NCBI GenBank assembly: GCA_016839165.1
Contig: CP069300.1
Span: 434,001 to 498,000, forward strand
DNA: 64,000 nt
From: Bradyrhizobium sp. PSBB068
GTDB lineage: Bacteria; Pseudomonadota; Alphaproteobacteria; Rhizobiales; Xanthobacteraceae
Reading direction: 5' to 3'
Shown here piece after piece: positions 5,879 through 13,292 of the stretch. Each line of letters opens with the position of its first letter. Position 1 is the stretch's first letter. The translations under genes and the position numbers were made by a program. A model generated the notes under the pieces. It saw only the letters and a program-made list of their open reading frames with translations, did not search any database and was not told where the DNA came from.

Positions 5879-6078
5879 TGGATATGACGACGCTTCCCGC
5901 CCTGCGTACCCCCGCTCCCCTCAGGCCACGCCTCGAGCGTCTTGAATTCGCAGACCGTGAGCGGGGTCTGACCCGACGTCACTTCATGCTCGGCTGTCTC
6001 GGTCTGGCGGCAAGCCAAATGGTTCGCCTGATCGACAGGCTGCAGCAACTGCCGCTGCTGCGCATTCGCTTCCCCTGA
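5878..6078 (+). CDS. Small hypothetical protein coupled to the upstream gene
   Basis: A 66-residue ORF whose ATG overlaps the preceding stop codon in an ATGA junction, which is the main support for it being real. It has a basic N-terminal half followed by RRHFMLGCLGLAASQ, a twin-Arg-plus-short-hydrophobic stretch. That stretch is too short and too far from the start to be a confident signal. No family was recognised. Confidence 0.45.
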   Translation: MDMTTLPALRTPAPLRPRLERLEFADRERGLTRRHFMLGCLGLAASQMVRLIDRLQQLPLLRIRFP

Positions 6079-6128
6079 CGGCATCGCGGCGAGCGCATCT
6101 TATTGAATCGCTTTGGCCGTGCGCTCGG

Positions 6129-6255
6129 TTCACCTCTCCCCATTTGGGGAGAGGTCGATTTGCGAAGCAAATCGGGTGAGGGGCCGCAGCTCCCACGAGG
6201 GACCGTAGACCCTCACCCGGCGCTACGCGCCGACCTCTCCCAAGGGAGAGGTGAA
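6129..6255. repeat. Palindromic intergenic repeat (CCTCTCCC...GGGAGAGG family)
   Basis: A 127-nt element bounded by inverted ends (TTCACCTCTCCC and GGGAGAGGTGAA). It contains internal hairpins, including GATTTGCGAAGCAAATC and CGGCGCTACGCGCCG. It belongs to the same general family as the elements at 34464, 37052 and 39025. It fills the convergent gap between the small ORF and the DUF445 gene and may also serve as a bidirectional transcript end. Confidence 0.8.
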
Positions 6256-6296
6256 CCTCCGCCGTCGATCCAGGTTCAACTTAATCCCGTCATGCG

Positions 6297-7544
6297 CTAC
6301 AGCCAGCGCGAGACCGAGAAGATCAGCAGCCCGACGAGCCCTCCGACGACGGTGCCGTTGATCCGGATGAATTGCAGATCGCGCCCGACCTGCATTTCGA
6401 TCCGCATGATCAGCGTTTCGGTGTCCCAGTTTTCGACCACCTTGCGGATGAAGGCCGCGATCTCCTGGCGCCGCGATGCGACGGCGCGCAGCGCGGCGAC
6501 GCGAAGCCAGCGGTTGATACGGTCGCGCATCTCGGCATCGTCCCGGACCCGGGCGGCAACCGACGTGAGGGCGGTTTCGATCGCGTCCGCAATCGCGGCC
6601 GAGGTCGCTGCGGAATTCAGCCGCATCTCGATGGCGTGCCACATCGCGTCGATCTGTCCGATCACGGCGGGATTGTCGAGCATCTGCTGCTTCAGCTCCT
6701 CGCCCCTGGCGAGGTATTCGGGATCGGTGGCGAGCCGGTCGATCAGGCGCTCGATCTCGGCCTTGAGCTCGACGCGCCAGGGATGGTTCGGCTCGCGCAT
6801 CTCGTCGAGCGTCTGGCTGACGCCGGAGATGACGCGGTCGGCCACCATGCCGTCGACCCATTTCGGAACGAACCGGTACGAGCGCTGCGAGACCTTCTTG
6901 CGGATCGTCTCCTTGTTGTTGGCGAGCGCCACGCTCGCCGATGTGATCAATCGCTCCACCAGCGCCTGGGCGTTGCCATGCGCCCATAATAGCGCCAGCA
7001 CCCGCGAAGCGAGCGGGGCCGCCGGAACCGCCGCGATGCCCTGCCGAGTGCGGCGGGTCAGAAAGGCGTTGATCTCGGCGCTCGGCGTCGCCTGCAGGGC
7101 CTGATGGACCGCCGAGACCGTGCGTTGGGCCGCGCTGCGGGCATGCGTCGGCCGCTCGATCCATTGCGCCGTCCAGCCGGCGATGTCGACGTCTCGGATG
7201 CGATCGCCGACCACGCGGGGCGACAGGAAATTGTTGGCGATGAAGCGGCCGAGCGCGACCGCGATGCGTTGCTTGCTCTGCGGAACGATCGCGGTGTGCG
7301 GGATCGGGATGCCGAGCGGATGACGGAACAGCGCGACGACGGCGAACCAGTCGGCGCAGGCGCCGATCATGCCGGCTTCGGCGAAAGCGCGCGGATAGGC
7401 CAGCCACGGCCAGTGCGGCTGCGCCATCGAGGTCGCCAGAAATACCAGCAGCATGAACACGAGCAAACCCGTGGCCAGCGTGCGCATGCGGCGAAGGTCG
7501 CGCAGCCTGGTGTCCTCAGGCGGAAGCACGGCGCCGATGTCCAA
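6297..7544 (-). CDS. DUF445 family membrane protein
   Basis: A 415-residue DUF445 (YjiN-like) protein. It has an N-terminal transmembrane segment (LATGLLVFMLLVFLATS), then the family block AFAEAGMIGACADWFAVVALFRHPLGIPIPHTAIVP, a long charged helical body, and a C-terminal hydrophobic end (GTVVGGLVGLLIFSV). The start is a TTG at 7544, 15 nt after the EcsC stop. Weak initiation would fit translational dependence on the upstream cistron. It is the last gene of the minus-strand block that begins at 11626. The biochemical role is unknown. Confidence 0.82.
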   Translation of the reverse strand: MDIGAVLPPEDTRLRDLRRMRTLATGLLVFMLLVFLATSMAQPHWPWLAYPRAFAEAGMIGACADWFAVVALFRHPLGIPIPHTAIVPQSKQRIAVALGRFIANNFLSPRVVGDRIRDVDIAGWTAQWIERPTHARSAAQRTVSAVHQALQATPSAEINAFLTRRTRQGIAAVPAAPLASRVLALLWAHGNAQALVERLITSASVALANNKETIRKKVSQRSYRFVPKWVDGMVADRVISGVSQTLDEMREPNHPWRVELKAEIERLIDRLATDPEYLARGEELKQQMLDNPAVIGQIDAMWHAIEMRLNSAATSAAIADAIETALTSVAARVRDDAEMRDRINRWLRVAALRAVASRRQEIAAFIRKVVENWDTETLIMRIEMQVGRDLQFIRINGTVVGGLVGLLIFSVSRWL

Positions 7545-7559
7545 TTGCTGCCAAACGCC

Positions 7560-8399
7560 TCATACCGTCGCGACGCCGCGCCGCGGCCCGAGCCCGGCTG
7601 CGATCGCCGCATAGTGTTGTCGAACGCCCGCGCTGCCGTGCAGCCGCTCCAGCCGGCGCACGGTGAAGTGACCTTTCGCGATCTTCTGGAAATGGTCCAT
7701 GAAGATGACGTTGACGGTTGCGCCGAACGCTGCGCCGATGATCGGCACCGCGCCGGCCGCCGCCTTGTCCGAGACCACCAGCCCGAACCGGGAGACGATT
7801 TCGCTGACCAGGTTGGAGATCACCGGGGCGGAGGCATCCACCGCGCCGCGCTCCAGGATGTAGGCGGCGGCGTCGCTGGTGTATTTGCTGATCAGCGCGC
7901 GGGCGGCGTAGTAGCCGATGTCGAGATTCTCGTCGGTTCGCTTGGTGCCGTAGGCGAACACTTCGAGGCAGGCGAGCCTGGCCTCGATCCGGGAGAGGTC
8001 CTCGCCCTGGTGCCGCGCGATCTCGGCGATCGCGCGCAGCATCAACGTCGTGGTCAGAGGCAGCTCGACCGCGAGCGCACCGAAGCCGAGCAGGCCGCTC
8101 ACGCCACCGGTCACGCCGGCGAGAAACGATGAAAAGGTGACCGCGGGTGCGGGCGGCGGCTTCTCGTCGAGCGTATCGACGGCGACTTCCAGCCCCTTCA
8201 TCACCGCCGTGCGCACCAGTCCGCTGAGCTGGCGGTTGGCGGCTTTCGGCAGCAGGCCCAGGACCCGGTTGACGGGGATGCCGGCATAGTCGGCGATCCT
8301 TGCCGCGAGGTTGGAGCTCTCCAGCGTCCTGACTGCGGCTTGTAGTGCGGCGTGATCGCCGGGAGGAAGCAGGACGAGCTGGGTGACATCCTGGCTCAT
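7560..8399 (-). CDS. EcsC family protein
   Basis: A 279-residue EcsC-family protein. The ATG at 8399 overlaps the stop of the P-type ATPase gene (ATGA), fixing both the start and the operon link. The family core has a Gly/Leu-rich central segment (FLAGVTGGVSGLLGFGALAVELPLTTTLMLRAIAEIA). It continues through a CLEVFAYG stretch and ends in AVPIIGAAFGATVNVIFMDHFQKIAKGHFTVRRLE. EcsC is named after the third gene of the Bacillus ecs ABC operon, and its molecular function is not established. Membrane association is likely. Confidence 0.83.
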   Translation of the reverse strand: MSQDVTQLVLLPPGDHAALQAAVRTLESSNLAARIADYAGIPVNRVLGLLPKAANRQLSGLVRTAVMKGLEVAVDTLDEKPPPAPAVTFSSFLAGVTGGVSGLLGFGALAVELPLTTTLMLRAIAEIARHQGEDLSRIEARLACLEVFAYGTKRTDENLDIGYYAARALISKYTSDAAAYILERGAVDASAPVISNLVSEIVSRFGLVVSDKAAAGAVPIIGAAFGATVNVIFMDHFQKIAKGHFTVRRLERLHGSAGVRQHYAAIAAGLGPRRGVATV

Positions 8400-10513
8400 T
8401 GATAGCGCAGAATTGGCCGGATGCCGTTGAGGCTCGCCAGGATCGCCGAGCCGTTGCTGATGATGGCGGTCACCTCGGGCGTGATCAGGCCGCCCGGCAG
8501 GGCCAGTCCGAGCGCCAGCGTGTTGAGCGCGGCGACGATCGCGTAGTTCTGCTTGATGAGGCTGACCGCGCCTTGCGAGATCTCGACCGCCTTGACGAGC
8601 TTCCACAGCGAATCTTCCATCAGGATGACGTCGGCGGATTCGTGCGTGACTTCGGCGCCGTGCTTCATGGCGATTCCGACATCGGCGAAGCTGAGCGCCG
8701 GCGAATCGTTGATGCCGTCGCCGACCATGGCGACCCGGCGGCCCTGGCGCTGCAGCTCCTGGATGACGCCGGCCTTGTCGGCCGGCAGCATGTCCGCGAA
8801 GTGCTCGGTGAGCCCCAGCCGGTTGCAGACGGCCCGCGCCACGACGGCATTGTCGCCGGTCAGCATGATGCTGTTCTTGACGCCCAGCTCATGCAGCCGC
8901 TGGATCACCGGACGGCTCTCCTCGCGGATCTCGTCAGAGTAAGGCACGAGGCCCGCGAGCTTGCCGTCCACGGCGATGTAGAGGCTCGAATAGCCGCGCT
9001 CGTCGAGCGCCGCGCGATCATGCACCGCGGCGTCGACGATGATCTCGCTCTGGCGCATGAAGCGCTGATTGCCGACATGGACATAGTAGCCGTTGACCTG
9101 GCCCTCGACGCCGAGGCCGAGACGGTAGGTGGTCTCGTTGCACGGCGGGATGTTGACGGCGAGCTGGCGGGCGCGGCTGCGCAACGCCTCGGCGACCGGA
9201 TGTTGCAGCTTGGTCTCGGCCGCCGCGGCGAGCCCGAGCAGGTGGTTCGGCGTGATGTACTTCTGATAGGAGATCACATCGATGACCGCCGGCGTGCCGT
9301 GGGTCAGTGTGCCGGTCTTGTCGAACACCATGGTGTCGATCCCGGCGAGCTTCTCCATGTGGCCGCCGCTCTTGATGATCATGCCGGTGCGGGCGGCCAG
9401 CGTCATCGAGGACAGCACGGATGTAGGGGCGGCGACGCGAATGCCGGTGCCGTAGTCGACGATGACGAGCGAGAGGAAGCGATTGAAGTCGCCGGAGACC
9501 ATGGCGGTGCCGGTGGCGAGCGCCAGGGTCGGGGTGACGAGCCGGTCGGCGAAGCGTTCGGCATGGTTCTGCATGCGGGTGTCGCCGATCGGCGCGGATT
9601 CGATCAACCGCACGATCTGGCCGGCGGTGGTCGCCGTCCCGACGCGCAAGGCACGCAACGTGATCTGGCCCTCGCGGATGACGGTAGCGGCGAAGGCCGC
9701 TTCGCCCTTGCCGCGATGCACCGGCAGGCCCTCGCCGGTGATCGTCTTCTGGTCGATGGTGGCGGAGCCGTCGATGATCTCGCCGTCGACCGGGATCATC
9801 TCGCCGGGATACACCACGACGATGTCGCCGTTCTTGAGCTCGGCGGCGGGAATCGACACCACCTCGCCGTCGCGCAGCAGCCAGGCCGTCTTCGACTGGA
9901 ATTCGAGCAGCTCGTTGATCGCCCGTCGCGAGCCCGCAGCGGTCAGGTCGCGGATCCAGTCGCCGAGCTTGATCAGCCAGGTGACGATGCAGCCGGCCAG
10001 CGGGTTGCCCTGGAGCACCGACGCGCTGATCGCGAGCGTATCGAGCACGTCGATGTTCAGCCGGCTCTCGTTCGCCCAGACCTTCCAGGCGCGCTTGGCG
10101 ATCGGGATCGCATTCCAGAGCATCAGCGGCATGTTGATCGCCGTGATCACCGGATTGGCGCTCAAAGCCATGAACAGGGACAGCGTCGGCAACGCCAGGG
10201 GCGAACGCTTCGAGACCTCCGGGACGCTGGCGCGTTGCGCGCCCGCATCCTGCGCGGCGCCGGCGCCCAGCGCCTTGAGGTCGGCCAGGCTCATGCGCTT
10301 GAAGCTGTTCAGCAGCAACAGCAGTCTTTGCTCGTGAGCCGGATCGTATTCCAGCACGAGGCTCGCGCAGTCGTAGTTGATCCGCGCGGTCCTGATGCCG
10401 TCCTGCGCCCGCAGCCAGCCGAGGCAGATCTCGCCCAGCTTGCGATTTTGGCCGAGCGCGGGAATGCTCAGACGGATGCGCCCTGGCATGGAGTGGCAGA
10501 AGCGGAAGTCCAT
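8396..10513 (-). CDS. P1B-like cation-translocating P-type ATPase lacking the CPC motif
   Basis: A 705-residue P-type ATPase. In order it shows an N-terminal HMA2-like domain (SMPGRIRLSIP, residues about 8-75, without a CxxC metal site), actuator TGE (about 259), phosphorylation motif DKTGT (Asp about 398), the P1B-type HP dipeptide (LQHPVAEAL, about 438), TGDN, and GDGIND (about 600). The membrane helix that normally carries CPC reads VIVDYGTGIRVAAPTSV, i.e. YGT in place of CPC. Transported ion selectivity therefore cannot be taken from classical Cu/Zn/Co pumps. It overlaps EcsC by 4 nt and lies 25 nt after the HMA2-protein gene. Confidence 0.9.
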   Translation of the reverse strand: MDFRFCHSMPGRIRLSIPALGQNRKLGEICLGWLRAQDGIRTARINYDCASLVLEYDPAHEQRLLLLLNSFKRMSLADLKALGAGAAQDAGAQRASVPEVSKRSPLALPTLSLFMALSANPVITAINMPLMLWNAIPIAKRAWKVWANESRLNIDVLDTLAISASVLQGNPLAGCIVTWLIKLGDWIRDLTAAGSRRAINELLEFQSKTAWLLRDGEVVSIPAAELKNGDIVVVYPGEMIPVDGEIIDGSATIDQKTITGEGLPVHRGKGEAAFAATVIREGQITLRALRVGTATTAGQIVRLIESAPIGDTRMQNHAERFADRLVTPTLALATGTAMVSGDFNRFLSLVIVDYGTGIRVAAPTSVLSSMTLAARTGMIIKSGGHMEKLAGIDTMVFDKTGTLTHGTPAVIDVISYQKYITPNHLLGLAAAAETKLQHPVAEALRSRARQLAVNIPPCNETTYRLGLGVEGQVNGYYVHVGNQRFMRQSEIIVDAAVHDRAALDERGYSSLYIAVDGKLAGLVPYSDEIREESRPVIQRLHELGVKNSIMLTGDNAVVARAVCNRLGLTEHFADMLPADKAGVIQELQRQGRRVAMVGDGINDSPALSFADVGIAMKHGAEVTHESADVILMEDSLWKLVKAVEISQGAVSLIKQNYAIVAALNTLALGLALPGGLITPEVTAIISNGSAILASLNGIRPILRYQ

Positions 10514-10538
10514 GGATTACGCTCTCGCCCCTGGCGGA

Positions 10539-11096
10539 TCAGGCCGTCGCGCCTGCCGGCTCCGCCTGCTCGGCGTCACGCATGTTGGCCTGGATCATGT
10601 GGTTGAGGGCAAACACTGCCAGCGTGACCCAAACCGGCGTCGCCGCGGTGGCGCCGACCTCGAAGATGGTGAAGCCGGCGATGCCGGCTGCCAGCACGAT
10701 CTTCAGATCGATCACGTTCCCGGTGGAGACCTTGATCCCGTTGTCGAAGTCCTTGAAGAAGTCGACAATGACCCTGGCCGTGTGCGAATGCTCGGCGAGA
10801 TACTCGGCTTCCTGTTCGATCTTGTTCGCCAGCGCGTCAATTTCATTGGTCGGCGGCTTGTAGTGACCGCCGGTGTGATGCTGCAGCCGGCCGTGAAACT
10901 CGTCATGCCGGTCGGTGTCGTAGTGCAGCACGATGCTGCCGGTCGCCGGGTTGACCAGGACTTCCTCGATGCCGGGAATGACGCTGAAGGTCTGCTTGAT
11001 CTGTTCAAGAAGCTCGGGGTTCTCCTTGGCCGACGGCACCTTCATGCGAATCCGGCCCGGAACCTGATGCGCAATCTGCAGCTTCATCTTGGTCAT
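10539..11096 (-). CDS. HMA2-domain membrane protein
   Basis: A 185-residue protein. Residues 1-75 form an HMA2-like ferredoxin-fold domain with the signature HQVPGRIRMKVP and no CxxC motif, matching the N-terminus of the ATPase next door. This is followed by a helical charged linker (LANKIEQEAEYLAEHSHTA) and two hydrophobic segments near the end (IVLAAGIAGFTIFEVGA, WVTLAVFALNHMI). The ATG at 11096 has GAGAGG upstream; the frame extends 28 codons further with no support. It is a likely partner or regulator of the ATPase. Confidence 0.8.
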   Translation of the reverse strand: MTKMKLQIAHQVPGRIRMKVPSAKENPELLEQIKQTFSVIPGIEEVLVNPATGSIVLHYDTDRHDEFHGRLQHHTGGHYKPPTNEIDALANKIEQEAEYLAEHSHTARVIVDFFKDFDNGIKVSTGNVIDLKIVLAAGIAGFTIFEVGATAATPVWVTLAVFALNHMIQANMRDAEQAEPAGATA

Positions 11097-11230
11097 CGCA
11101 TTCCTCTCACAGCGTTCCAACGCCGGCGCGGGGACGCGAATGATGCCGTCGTCAAATTGCCTGCAGCGCCGGCGTCGCAAGGTTGATCACCGGCGCGCTT
11201 CGCCGTCTTGTGTCTGCCCGTCCGGCCCGT

Positions 11231-11626
11231 TCAGGCCGCAGGCGACGCCCGGCCGTCTGCCGCCGTCTTGCTTTCCGGCGCCTTGCTCTCGGCCTTCACT
11301 TCGGCAACGATGTCGTTGACCTGCTCATGGGCCTCGGCAAACATCTCGCGCGACTTCTGGGCGAACTTGTAGGTGCCGCGAACGGTGGACTTGAACAGCG
11401 GATTGAGTGCGCCCGCCAGCTTCGGCAGGTACTTCGGCGCCGCGACTGCGGCAACGCCGAGTGCAAGTCCCGGCAGCAAGGCAGCTTCGAACACCGCAGC
11501 ACCGACAGCCACCACCGCGACGACCGCAACCGTCTTGTTGATGCCGCCACCCTCCTCGGACTCCTGCTCGGGGGCCTCGTTGTGGAAGGCGGTATCGTGA
11601 CTGCTACCATTGTGGTTCGGGTTCAT
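11231..11626 (-). CDS. DUF5132-like small membrane protein
   Basis: A 131-residue protein with a polar, acidic N-terminus, a strongly hydrophobic Ala/Val segment (VAVVAVVAVGAAVFEAALLPGL), a PKYLPKLAGAL turn, and an amphipathic charged tail (KSREMFAEAHEQVNDIVAEVKAE). It resembles DUF5132 proteins that accompany HMA2 proteins and P-type ATPases. AAGGG seven nt upstream favours the ATG at 11626 over one eight codons earlier. It is the first gene of the block; a 134-nt gap separates it from the HMA2 gene. Confidence 0.68.
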   Translation of the reverse strand: MNPNHNGSSHDTAFHNEAPEQESEEGGGINKTVAVVAVVAVGAAVFEAALLPGLALGVAAVAAPKYLPKLAGALNPLFKSTVRGTYKFAQKSREMFAEAHEQVNDIVAEVKAESKAPESKTAADGRASPAA

Positions 11627-11692
11627 CGGAAATCCCTTGTGACCGCTCAACTAACTGCAGTTTCACCAATAACGGCGGATTGAAATGGATTC

Positions 11693-11710
11693 ATGACAGT
11701 TTGATTACAG
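11693..11710 (-). promoter_or_regulatory. Pho box (PhoB-type) ahead of the DUF5132/P-type ATPase block
   Basis: On the minus strand the 18 nt read CTGTAAT-CAAA-CTGTCAT: two 7-nt direct repeats separated by 4 nt. This is the architecture and near-exact consensus of a PhoB site. It lies about 67 nt upstream of the DUF5132 start codon, in the only intergenic gap preceding the block, and is correctly oriented. Binding is inferred. Confidence 0.6.
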
Positions 11711-11872: not shown

Positions 11873-13072
11873 CTACCGGTCCCACGTCACCGGCAGATCC
11901 AGCAGGCCGCGGAACGCCCAGCCGCCGATCCGCGGCGGCCGGTCCTCGATCAGGCGCAGGTTCGTCAGCCTGGTGAAGATCGCGGGCAGCGCGACGTCGG
12001 CGACCATGGCGCGCGAGGCCCAGGCGCCGGCGCAGAAATGCGGGCCGGCGCCGAACGCGATGCTCTTGCTGGCGTCGCGGCGGATGTCGAAGCGGTCGGG
12101 CTCGCTGAAATGCTTCTCGTCGCGGTTCGCCGAGCCGAACATCAGGAATACGCGTTCGTTGGTTTCGAATGCGACATCCCGGATCGTCCAGGGTTTGGCG
12201 ATCCGCCGCGGCGACATCCCGATCGGCGAGATCCAGCGCGCATATTCCTCGAACACCTGCAGCCACGGGATCGCGCCATCAGTCGCCAGCGCCAGCTGAT
12301 CGGGATGGGTCAGCAGCGCCCACACGGTGCCTGCGATCGCATCACGCGGCTCGTTCTGGCCGCCCGAGATCGCAAGCTTGATGTTGGCGCGCACGCTCGC
12401 CATCGGCATGTCGGTCTGCAGCAGCACGCCGAGCAGGCTGAGGTCGGGGGCCTTGCGCAGCCTTGGAGCCATCTCGTCGATCGCGGCGTCGATGCCCGAG
12501 GTCGCGGCATGGCAGCGCGCCTCGATCGCGGGATCGCCGACGTAGTTCGCGATGCCGTCGATCATGCCCTGCGACCACGCGTTCATGTCCTGGAAGCGCA
12601 TGTTGGTGAGGCCGGTGATCGATTTCAGGCACTCAGCCGAGAACGGCAGCGCGAAGGCCTGCACGAAATCGACGACGCCGTCCGGCTTCAGTTCGTCGAG
12701 GATGCGCGTCGCGTGTCCGGCGAACTGCGCGGTCCAGTGCGATTTGACGGTCTTCGGTGAGATCGTCGGGAAGATCGCCTTGCGCTCGTTCATGTGCGCG
12801 TCGCCGTCCTTGCGCATCATGTTATGGCCCATCAGCCTGTTCATCAGCCCCTCGGGCTGGTGCGACGAGAACACGTCGATCTGCTTCTCGCAGATGAAGA
12901 TGTCGTCGCGGTTGCACAGCAGCGTGCTGCCGAGCTGCGGCACGAACGCGATCGGCGCTTGTTTGCGCATGCGCGCCAAGGTCGGATAGGGGTCCTGCCA
13001 GAAGGCGGGGACGTCGATGTCGAAATGGGGAGCGGTGCTCACGGTGTATGGCCTCAGGTTCTCAACGAGCAT
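11873..13072 (-). CDS. Cytochrome P450
   Basis: A soluble bacterial P450 of about 399 residues. The heme-ligand loop is FGAGPHFCAGAW, with the ExxR-helix region in VFEEYARWISP and a PERF-like EPDRFDIRR. The I-helix reads AISGGQNEPRDAI, so the usual acid-Thr pair of the proton-delivery motif (AGxD/ET) is replaced by N-E. This suggests altered O2 activation or a specialised substrate. Upstream codons in frame are translated palindromic repeat, so the ATG at 13072 is preferred, though the exact start is uncertain. No ferredoxin or reductase gene is adjacent. Substrate unknown. Confidence 0.9.
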   Translation of the reverse strand: MLVENLRPYTVSTAPHFDIDVPAFWQDPYPTLARMRKQAPIAFVPQLGSTLLCNRDDIFICEKQIDVFSSHQPEGLMNRLMGHNMMRKDGDAHMNERKAIFPTISPKTVKSHWTAQFAGHATRILDELKPDGVVDFVQAFALPFSAECLKSITGLTNMRFQDMNAWSQGMIDGIANYVGDPAIEARCHAATSGIDAAIDEMAPRLRKAPDLSLLGVLLQTDMPMASVRANIKLAISGGQNEPRDAIAGTVWALLTHPDQLALATDGAIPWLQVFEEYARWISPIGMSPRRIAKPWTIRDVAFETNERVFLMFGSANRDEKHFSEPDRFDIRRDASKSIAFGAGPHFCAGAWASRAMVADVALPAIFTRLTNLRLIEDRPPRIGGWAFRGLLDLPVTWDR

Positions 13073-13120
13073 AATCCGCCATGCCCATCCGGTCTGTCCC
13101 CATGATTTGGGACACACACC

Positions 13121-13221
13121 GTCATCGCCCGACTTGATCGGGCGATCCAGTATTCCAGAGGCAGTCATTGTCGATTGAGAGGCCGCGGCGTACTGGATTC
13201 CCCGCTTTCGCGGGGAATGAC
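13121..13221. repeat. Palindromic intergenic repeat (GTCATCGCCCGA...GGGGAATGAC family)
   Basis: A roughly 100-nt element with inverted pairs CGCCCGACTTGATCGGGCG and CCCCGCTTTCGCGGGG and a central TCCAGTATTCCAGAGGC / GTACTGGA pairing. It is of the type frequent in Bradyrhizobium intergenic regions. It sits between the LuxR regulator and the P450 gene. Confidence 0.8.
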
Positions 13222-13292
13222 AGCAGAGAATAATGGCGGCATGGTCGCGCAAGACGACGCAACCGGCGCAGCGGCAACTTTAGCGCGGGGCG

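Follow-up and report, generated by a model that had tools for sequence, protein, structure and literature searches.

A conserved five-gene block in Bradyrhizobium encoding a P1B-like ATPase without a CPC motif, with possible links to phosphate and iron

We analyzed a 64,000-nt stretch of DNA from Bradyrhizobium sp. PSBB068 (the window; positions 434001-498000 of the 7.67-Mb genome, G000:C1), in which open reading frames and Pfam matches define five genes on the minus strand, encoding a DUF5132 protein, an HMA_2 protein, a P1B-like ATPase, an EcsC-family protein, and a DUF445 protein. The DUF5132 gene runs over 11231..11650 from a TTG start (139 aa; PF17195, 34.1 bits), or over 11231-11626 in a shorter form from ATG; its product has a hydrophobic segment and then a helix-like stretch ending in DIVAEVKAE. 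The HMA_2 protein (10539..11096 from ATG, 185 aa, with a longer frame beginning at 11180; PF19991, 64.2 bits) consists of a cysteine-free GRIR domain and a C-terminal hydrophobic part. The ATPase of 705 aa is encoded at 8396..10513 (PF00122, 127.5 bits; PF00702, 103.7 bits; TIGR01525, 500 bits), the EcsC-family protein of 279 aa at 7560..8399 (PF12787, 92.7 bits), and the DUF445 protein of 415 aa, a paralogue specific to the block and different from this genome's other DUF445, at 6297..7544 (PF04286, 351 bits). From low to high coordinates the intergenic gaps are 15, -4, 25, and 134 nt, the negative value being an ATGA at which EcsC overlaps the stop of the ATPase gene. Upstream of DUF5132, a direct repeat resembling a Pho box (CTGTAAT-CAAA-CTGTCAT) lies on the same strand at 11693..11710. 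Further upstream, at a distance of 222 bases from the longest frame of DUF5132, a cytochrome P450 gene occupies 11873-13252 on that strand as well.

A preliminary description of this DNA had proposed such a minus-strand block with an ATGA overlap and gaps of 15-134 nt, and had assigned to the ATPase and the separate HMA_2 protein the same GRIR-x3-P domain without CxxC. Coordinates and Pfam agree with the first point, and the motif is indeed present in both proteins (as PGRIRMKVP and PGRIRLSIP), the ATPase's own HMA_2 domain scoring 29.8 bits in Pfam against a cut-off of 30. No cysteine occurs in the window's HMA_2 and DUF5132 proteins. DUF5132, EcsC, and DUF445 are families of unknown function, and the block does combine poorly characterized parts with a pump in a conserved transport unit, as that description had it. 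A sequence search for solved structures returned no convincing relative of the EcsC, DUF445, or HMA_2 protein (best E 0.037). The EcsC protein matches the PADLOC candidate defence profile PDC-S29 at 36.2 bits.

The five genes are a genuine co-conserved unit, beyond chance. Among 146 genomes of the genus, the window's genome included, HMA_2 (PF19991) was found in 12, and 10 of these 12, again with the window's, carry all five genes in identical order. EcsC (PF12787) occurs in exactly these 10 five-gene carriers and in 0/136 others. The genes are found together across genomes and move jointly. DUF445 is almost universal in the genus (141/146 genomes); at least two matches to it were found in 12/12 HMA_2 genomes versus 0/134 remaining ones, and one of the counts of three is accounted for by L115 (fetched loci carry L numbers, genomes G numbers), whose DUF445 is split into two frames. 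The Fisher p values of 1e-15 (EcsC) and 8e-18 (extra DUF445) overstate independence because the genomes are related. Of the nine other genus blocks, seven (L110, L112, and L114-L118) share the window's flanks and thus occupy the same chromosomal place, and two lie elsewhere: L111 shares the block and one flanking gene, and L113 only an in-block stretch corresponding to 6319-11530. In a tree of DUF445 proteins the block copies (10 rows, one from another family) form one clade (support 100/97) at a great distance from the DUF445 proteins found elsewhere in these genomes; the program warns that long branches meet between the block clade and the other DUF445. This tree omits L115, because of its split gene, and the cyanobacterial L253-L259, which were missed by the profile; L260 and the L120 row represent a single gene.

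Relatives were found both in Proteobacteria and in Cyanobacteria, two of the groups across which a neighbourhood search had been proposed. HMA_2 was detected in 9/385 genomes of the class sample, 6 of them above cut-off. L232 (G1219), from another alphaproteobacterial family, has all five genes in identical order with protein identities of 41-66%, and its DUF445 is the sole one found in that genome. L004, a metagenome-assembled genome of the Rhodospirillales (duplicated by L197), has the block's first four genes and then a Cas9-like gene; the latter (5888-8395, with HNH and RuvC_III domains) is found a short way downstream of these four. In a contig scan with partly generic P-type motifs, only L004 resembled the block among the matches listed (80 loci), and more may exist. 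Few genomes of the phylum sample have DUF5132 (3/398, including the window's); it is commoner in the cyanobacterial one (31/194 genomes). Matches of an iterated HMA_2 profile were not counted because it drifted into ordinary HMA domains, and L122 (G414), whose DUF5132 match is below cut-off and which has no related neighbours by blastp, was dropped. A tblastn search of plasmids (72,556 records for the HMA_2 query) gave none for DUF5132 and three weak matches for HMA_2, and viral contigs searched for relatives of EcsC, DUF445, and HMA_2 yielded none.

Within 10 kb of DUF5132, neither EcsC nor DUF445 was found in any of the 31 cyanobacterial genomes; the nearest case is in G682, where a DUF445 lies at about 16 kb. 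The core of DUF5132, HMA_2, and ATPase reaches Cyanobacteria, and EcsC with DUF445 is an alphaproteobacterial addition. One could then regard these two as mere passengers on a three-gene functional unit, which is very unlikely: in the genus sample EcsC and the extra DUF445 are confined to cluster carriers, the gene order is kept in a second family, and EcsC overlaps the ATPase gene. Moreover, each of the two, without the other, also stands beside sets of DUF5132, HMA_2, and a P2-type ATPase. In L119 and L120, DUF5132, two HMA_2 genes, and DUF445 adjoin the gene for a P2-type ATPase (about 1060 aa) that itself contains an HMA_2 domain; in L229 and L231, DUF5132, HMA_2, and EcsC accompany such an ATPase; in L121, DUF5132, HMA_2, and a P2-type ATPase are joined by that genome's only DUF445. 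EcsC and DUF445 are clade-specific partners. The idea of one machine, put forward in the preliminary description, holds as far as a conserved transport unit is concerned; the unit is not indivisible, however, its wider core being DUF5132, HMA_2, and a P-type ATPase. The P2-type sets, at L119:5884-12115, L120:7406-13628, L229:6787-13916, and L231:5649-12755, encode ATPases that measure about 1000 aa and carry HMA_2 at the N terminus.

The window's ATPase passes the heavy-metal P-type model TIGR01525 with 500.2 bits (cut-off 346.25), is also above the cut-off of TIGR01512, and has intact catalytic motifs (DKTGT, TGE, and GDGIND). Its helix 4 does not contain the metal motif CPC, SPC, or TPC: it reads DYGTGIRVAAP, with Y-G-T aligned to the CPC of CopA (3j09), an Asp before it, and G-I-R after it. 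We sorted the ATPases of the fetched loci by their helix-4 motif into 34 with D..TG[IV]R (hereafter TGIR; 12 alphaproteobacterial and 22 cyanobacterial), 16 with D[YF][SA]C (DYSC), 18 with CPC (a one-in-four sample plus L191 and L019), and 5 others. DYGTGI is found in all 12 alphaproteobacterial TGIR sequences. In a quick tree, calculated with the motif columns kept in the alignment, the 34 TGIR ATPases form one clade (SH-aLRT 100) and are joined with 14/16 DYSC sequences at SH-aLRT 96; DYSC is not one clade because two members (L012 and L228) group with CPC types. Residues D353, T356, G357, and R359 are conserved by definition of the TGIR group; D155, D158, R188, D311, T312, R313, and R345, none of which was used to define it, are invariant in 34/34. 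CxxC is absent from 33/34 TGIR ATPases. Cysteines occur elsewhere in these proteins (median 4; six in the window's ATPase, none of them in helix 4). The helix-4 residues argue against a thiol-bound metal.

The small proteins encoded with these ATPases suggest a wider kinship. The window's DUF5132 protein matches PF17195 and has no match to PF07371 (DUF1490) in Pfam. A profile of 31 cyanobacterial DUF5132 proteins, used without iteration, matched 11/11 block-type copies (best E 4.8e-15) and, at E <= 0.01, 5/9 small proteins encoded upstream of DYSC ATPases; an alphaproteobacterial DUF5132 profile matched 0/9 of the latter at E 0.01. With hhalign, the alphaproteobacterial and cyanobacterial DUF5132 profiles align at a probability of 98%, and the cyanobacterial profile and the nine DYSC-upstream proteins at 68%. 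Pfam places DUF6110 above cut-off in four intermediates (L014, L192, L005, and L006) and below it in L061. With DUF1490, the L192 protein reaches 25.9 (cut-off 28.4) as well, and one small protein of L019 stays below cut-off with both DUF1490 (25.4) and DUF5132 (17.3). On these similarities DUF5132, DUF6110, and DUF1490 probably belong to one superfamily, the kinship of DUF5132 with DUF6110 being moderately supported and that with DUF1490, seen via DUF6110-type intermediates only, weakly indicated. In the loci seen, DUF5132 is paired with TGIR or P2-type ATPases, DUF6110-like proteins with DYSC ATPases, and DUF1490 with a CPC ATPase (one locus); L019 is mixed. This last locus (L019:1051-9839, Anaerosolibacter) has two tandem pairs of small protein and P1B-like ATPase plus a P2-type ATPase, and one of the helices 4 reads ACPKPAY. 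About 6 kb upstream of the L111 block, near a DUF155 gene, a long DUF2061 protein (L111:1117-3264) has a 31-residue stretch 58% identical to the window's DUF5132 protein.

The TIGR01525 and TIGR01512 scores, the Cu, Zn, and Cd ATPases that are the closest relatives of the window's ATPase in the PDB, and the small proteins of the DUF1490/DUF6110/DUF5132 group that precede several such ATPases would fit an efflux platform for a soft transition metal (zinc, cadmium, or cobalt), distantly related to mycobacterial PacL-Ctp and binding the metal outside helix 4. We nevertheless consider this unlikely, given the helix 4 without CPC, SPC, or TPC, the near-absence of CxxC from TGIR ATPases, and the cysteine-free HMA_2 and DUF5132 proteins of the window; in addition, the single clear DUF1490 locus among those fetched encodes a CPC-type ATPase.

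A connection with iron is suggested by the cyanobacterial relatives. Of 40 places listed for cyanobacterial DUF5132, 35 loci were fetched, 21 of them with a TGIR ATPase. FeoA and/or FeoB is encoded in 12/21 TGIR loci versus 0/13 other DUF5132 loci (Fisher p 6e-4), within 3.6 kb of the ATPase in 11 of the 12 and at 9.3 kb in L183. The uncorrected profile counts were 13/21 and 3/14; we removed L173 and L189 (DUF697 GTPases) and L158 (MnmE), and set aside L174, in which FeoAB is present and the TGIR motif is in a broken frame. In the eight of these 12 loci that were also checked with Pfam (L160, L161, L170, L175, L177, L181, L183, and L184), the presence of FeoB or FeoA was confirmed, the FeoB of L175 being a 105-aa piece; L184/L185 and L170/L196 are pairs of near-copies. 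In L170 and L196 the order FeoA-FeoB-DUF5132-HMA_2-TGIR ATPase-DUF2202 is found on one strand (L170:7537-14496 and L196:7456-14448). This run is followed by a second small DUF5132-like protein, which starts with MSLIHW. The ferritin-like DUF2202 occurs in five loci and is above the Pfam cut-off in the two that were checked with Pfam. Among the 80 loci listed from the contig scan, FeoA or FeoB lies near two DYSC ATPases (L012 and L014) and one CPC ATPase (L045); the Feo-profile match in L033 is, by Pfam, a GTP-bdg/HflX-type GTPase. At L006:3281-4050 a gene for a DtxR-type iron-dependent repressor is divergent from that of the DUF6110 protein preceding a DYSC ATPase.

A connection with phosphate is suggested within the genus itself. 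When its 10 loci are compared, the clearest shared stretch upstream of DUF5132 contains the direct repeat: when 300 bases upstream were searched on the same strand, a similar repeat was found in all 10 at -45 to -79 from the start of the longest frame. Compared with what we take to be the Pho-box consensus, it has 0 mismatches in five loci (the window's copy among them), 1 in two, 2 in two, and 3 in L111, the last counting for little because three-mismatch matches are common. A control of 80 loci from other organisms (1.13 Mb) gave 0, 6, and 43 matches at 0, 1, and 2 mismatches, respectively. The L111 block adjoins a gene for PPK2 and lies near one for a PHO4-family transporter, and the opposite strand carries a one-mismatch site in the interval from PPK2 to the block. 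The upstream element suggests phosphate-starvation control.

Cargoes other than iron are conceivable. The ATPase might move a counter-cation of polyphosphate (Mg2+, Ca2+, or Mn2+) in phosphate homeostasis, for example by filling or emptying an acidocalcisome-like store, and the repeat in 10 genus loci, the PPK2 and PHO4 neighbours, the oxygen-type residues of helix 4, and the similar small proteins that accompany P2-type ATPases would all fit. We find this doubtful, because those neighbours occur in one locus only and the cyanobacterial relatives point to Feo. Alternatively, the ATPase may not be an ion pump at all and may instead translocate lipids or remodel the membrane during phosphate starvation, EcsC and DUF445 then acting as its partners in the envelope. 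The charged residues D353 and R359 in a helix 4 that has lost the usual metal ligands, the Pho-box-like repeat, and the presence of two membrane-associated helper families could be cited for it; with a sequence that is firmly P1B-like and with Feo and ferritin-like neighbours in Cyanobacteria, we hold it to be highly improbable.

Our preferred reading, to which we give a probability of roughly 45%, is that the block is a phosphate-linked operon for a P-type ATPase platform that moves ferrous iron or another hard cation, with substrate and direction inferred. The operon would provide a membrane platform made up of a pump, a small membrane partner, and a docking-domain protein. The DUF5132 protein would sit in the inner membrane beside the ATPase and cluster or stabilize it, by analogy with PacL1, and the HMA_2 protein may dock on, or exchange with, the ATPase's own GRIR domain; since it lacks thiols, it is likelier a docking partner or hard-ion carrier than a copper or zinc chaperone. 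Powered by ATP, the ATPase would either remove ferrous iron (or a different divalent cation with oxygen ligands) from the cytosol or deliver it to a store enclosed by a membrane. Transport may be triggered by phosphate shortage, when phosphate no longer buffers iron, and EcsC and DUF445 could be membrane-associated helpers that assemble the platform or compartment. A bolder version, rather unlikely as a whole, would make the TGIR ATPases a new P1B subclass with no cysteine in the transport site that fills a membrane-enclosed store of iron phosphate or polyphosphate with ferrous iron, under PhoB control in the genus and with EcsC and DUF445 shaping or anchoring the compartment, that is, a distinct cousin of the ferrosome coupling iron storage to phosphate status.

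Several observations weigh against the platform reading. Profiles detected no Feo or DUF2202 at the alphaproteobacterial blocks, and no ferritin or iron-regulator gene was recognized beside them in flanks that were only skimmed; the Feo association, furthermore, falls mostly in one of the two cyanobacterial TGIR subclades, so that iron is carried over to the genus by homology. As for phosphate, the consensus is unvalidated on the known pho genes of this genome. The window's repeat alone is not significant (1 match at up to 1 mismatch, 0.12 expected, and at least 1 in 11/100 shuffles), and no repeat with up to 3 mismatches was found in L232, L004, or the five P2-type loci examined. The genus counts are not independent because seven of the nine other blocks occupy the window's place. 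The DUF1490 protein gave E 0.56 with the cyanobacterial DUF5132 profile and no match with the alphaproteobacterial one, and hhalign aligned DUF1490 with cyanobacterial DUF5132 at a probability of 15%. Finally, the AlphaFold models were unusable (pLDDT 34.7 for EcsC, with two sequences modelled, and 44.0 for DUF445, with one).

What the block offers is a shared, testable context for HMA_2 and for three families of unknown function, DUF5132, EcsC, and DUF445. A P1B-like subclass whose helix 4 offers no thiol ligands is relevant to the rule by which substrates are assigned from that helix, and the operon would link iron handling with phosphate starvation. The small partners DUF5132, DUF6110, and DUF1490 may form a single superfamily used by P-type ATPases of several kinds.

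To call the block an undescribed system, as the preliminary description did, was too strong, since in combining a small membrane protein, a domain of the GRxR/HMA_2 type, and a P1B-like ATPase it resembles the PacL/Ctp and Fez kinds; what looks new, judged from sequence, is the subclass of P1B-like pumps without a CPC site, together with the iron and phosphate links. In mycobacteria, PacL proteins (DUF1490) form metal efflux platforms with CtpC, CtpG, and CtpV, in which PacL1 clusters or stabilizes the ATPase. The block shares with them a small protein, with a hydrophobic segment and, at its C terminus, a stretch of the D-[IV]-xAEA type, that is encoded near a P1B-like ATPase. DUF5132 lies upstream of the ATPase on the same strand, with the HMA_2 gene in between; the tie in sequence runs along the chain DUF5132-DUF6110-DUF1490, direct similarity between its ends not being significant. 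Unlike PacL/Ctp, the block has an ATPase without CPC and adds a separate HMA_2 gene, EcsC, and DUF445. Fez (ferrosome) operons, which serve iron storage, are built around the P1B-type (P1B-6) ATPase FezB. Here the likeness lies in a P1B-type ATPase operon with Feo genes near members of the TGIR and DYSC clades; in addition, one DYSC locus has a DtxR-type repressor nearby, and TGIR loci have DUF2202. Our guess for FezB is the DYSC sister clade, which has DUF6110-like partners. The block differs from Fez in its helix 4 (D-x-x-T-G-I-R, without cysteine), its EcsC and DUF445 genes, and its Pho-box-like element. With the canonical P1B ATPases CopA and ZntA, the ATPase has the catalytic core and motifs in common, whereas it lacks CPC and CxxC and has other residues in helices 5-6. 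The P2-type ATPases with an N-terminal HMA_2 domain (L119, L120, L229, and L231), which presumably resemble mycobacterial CtpH/CtpI, are accompanied, like the block's, by DUF5132, HMA_2, and DUF445 or EcsC, yet differ in class, with PEGLP in helix 4 and, in L119, a Cation_ATPase_C domain. EcsC, for its part, is named within EcsABC of Bacillus subtilis; the block shares a member of that family with it, but its EcsC adjoins a P-type ATPase and DUF445 in a block without ABC genes of the ecsA/ecsB type.

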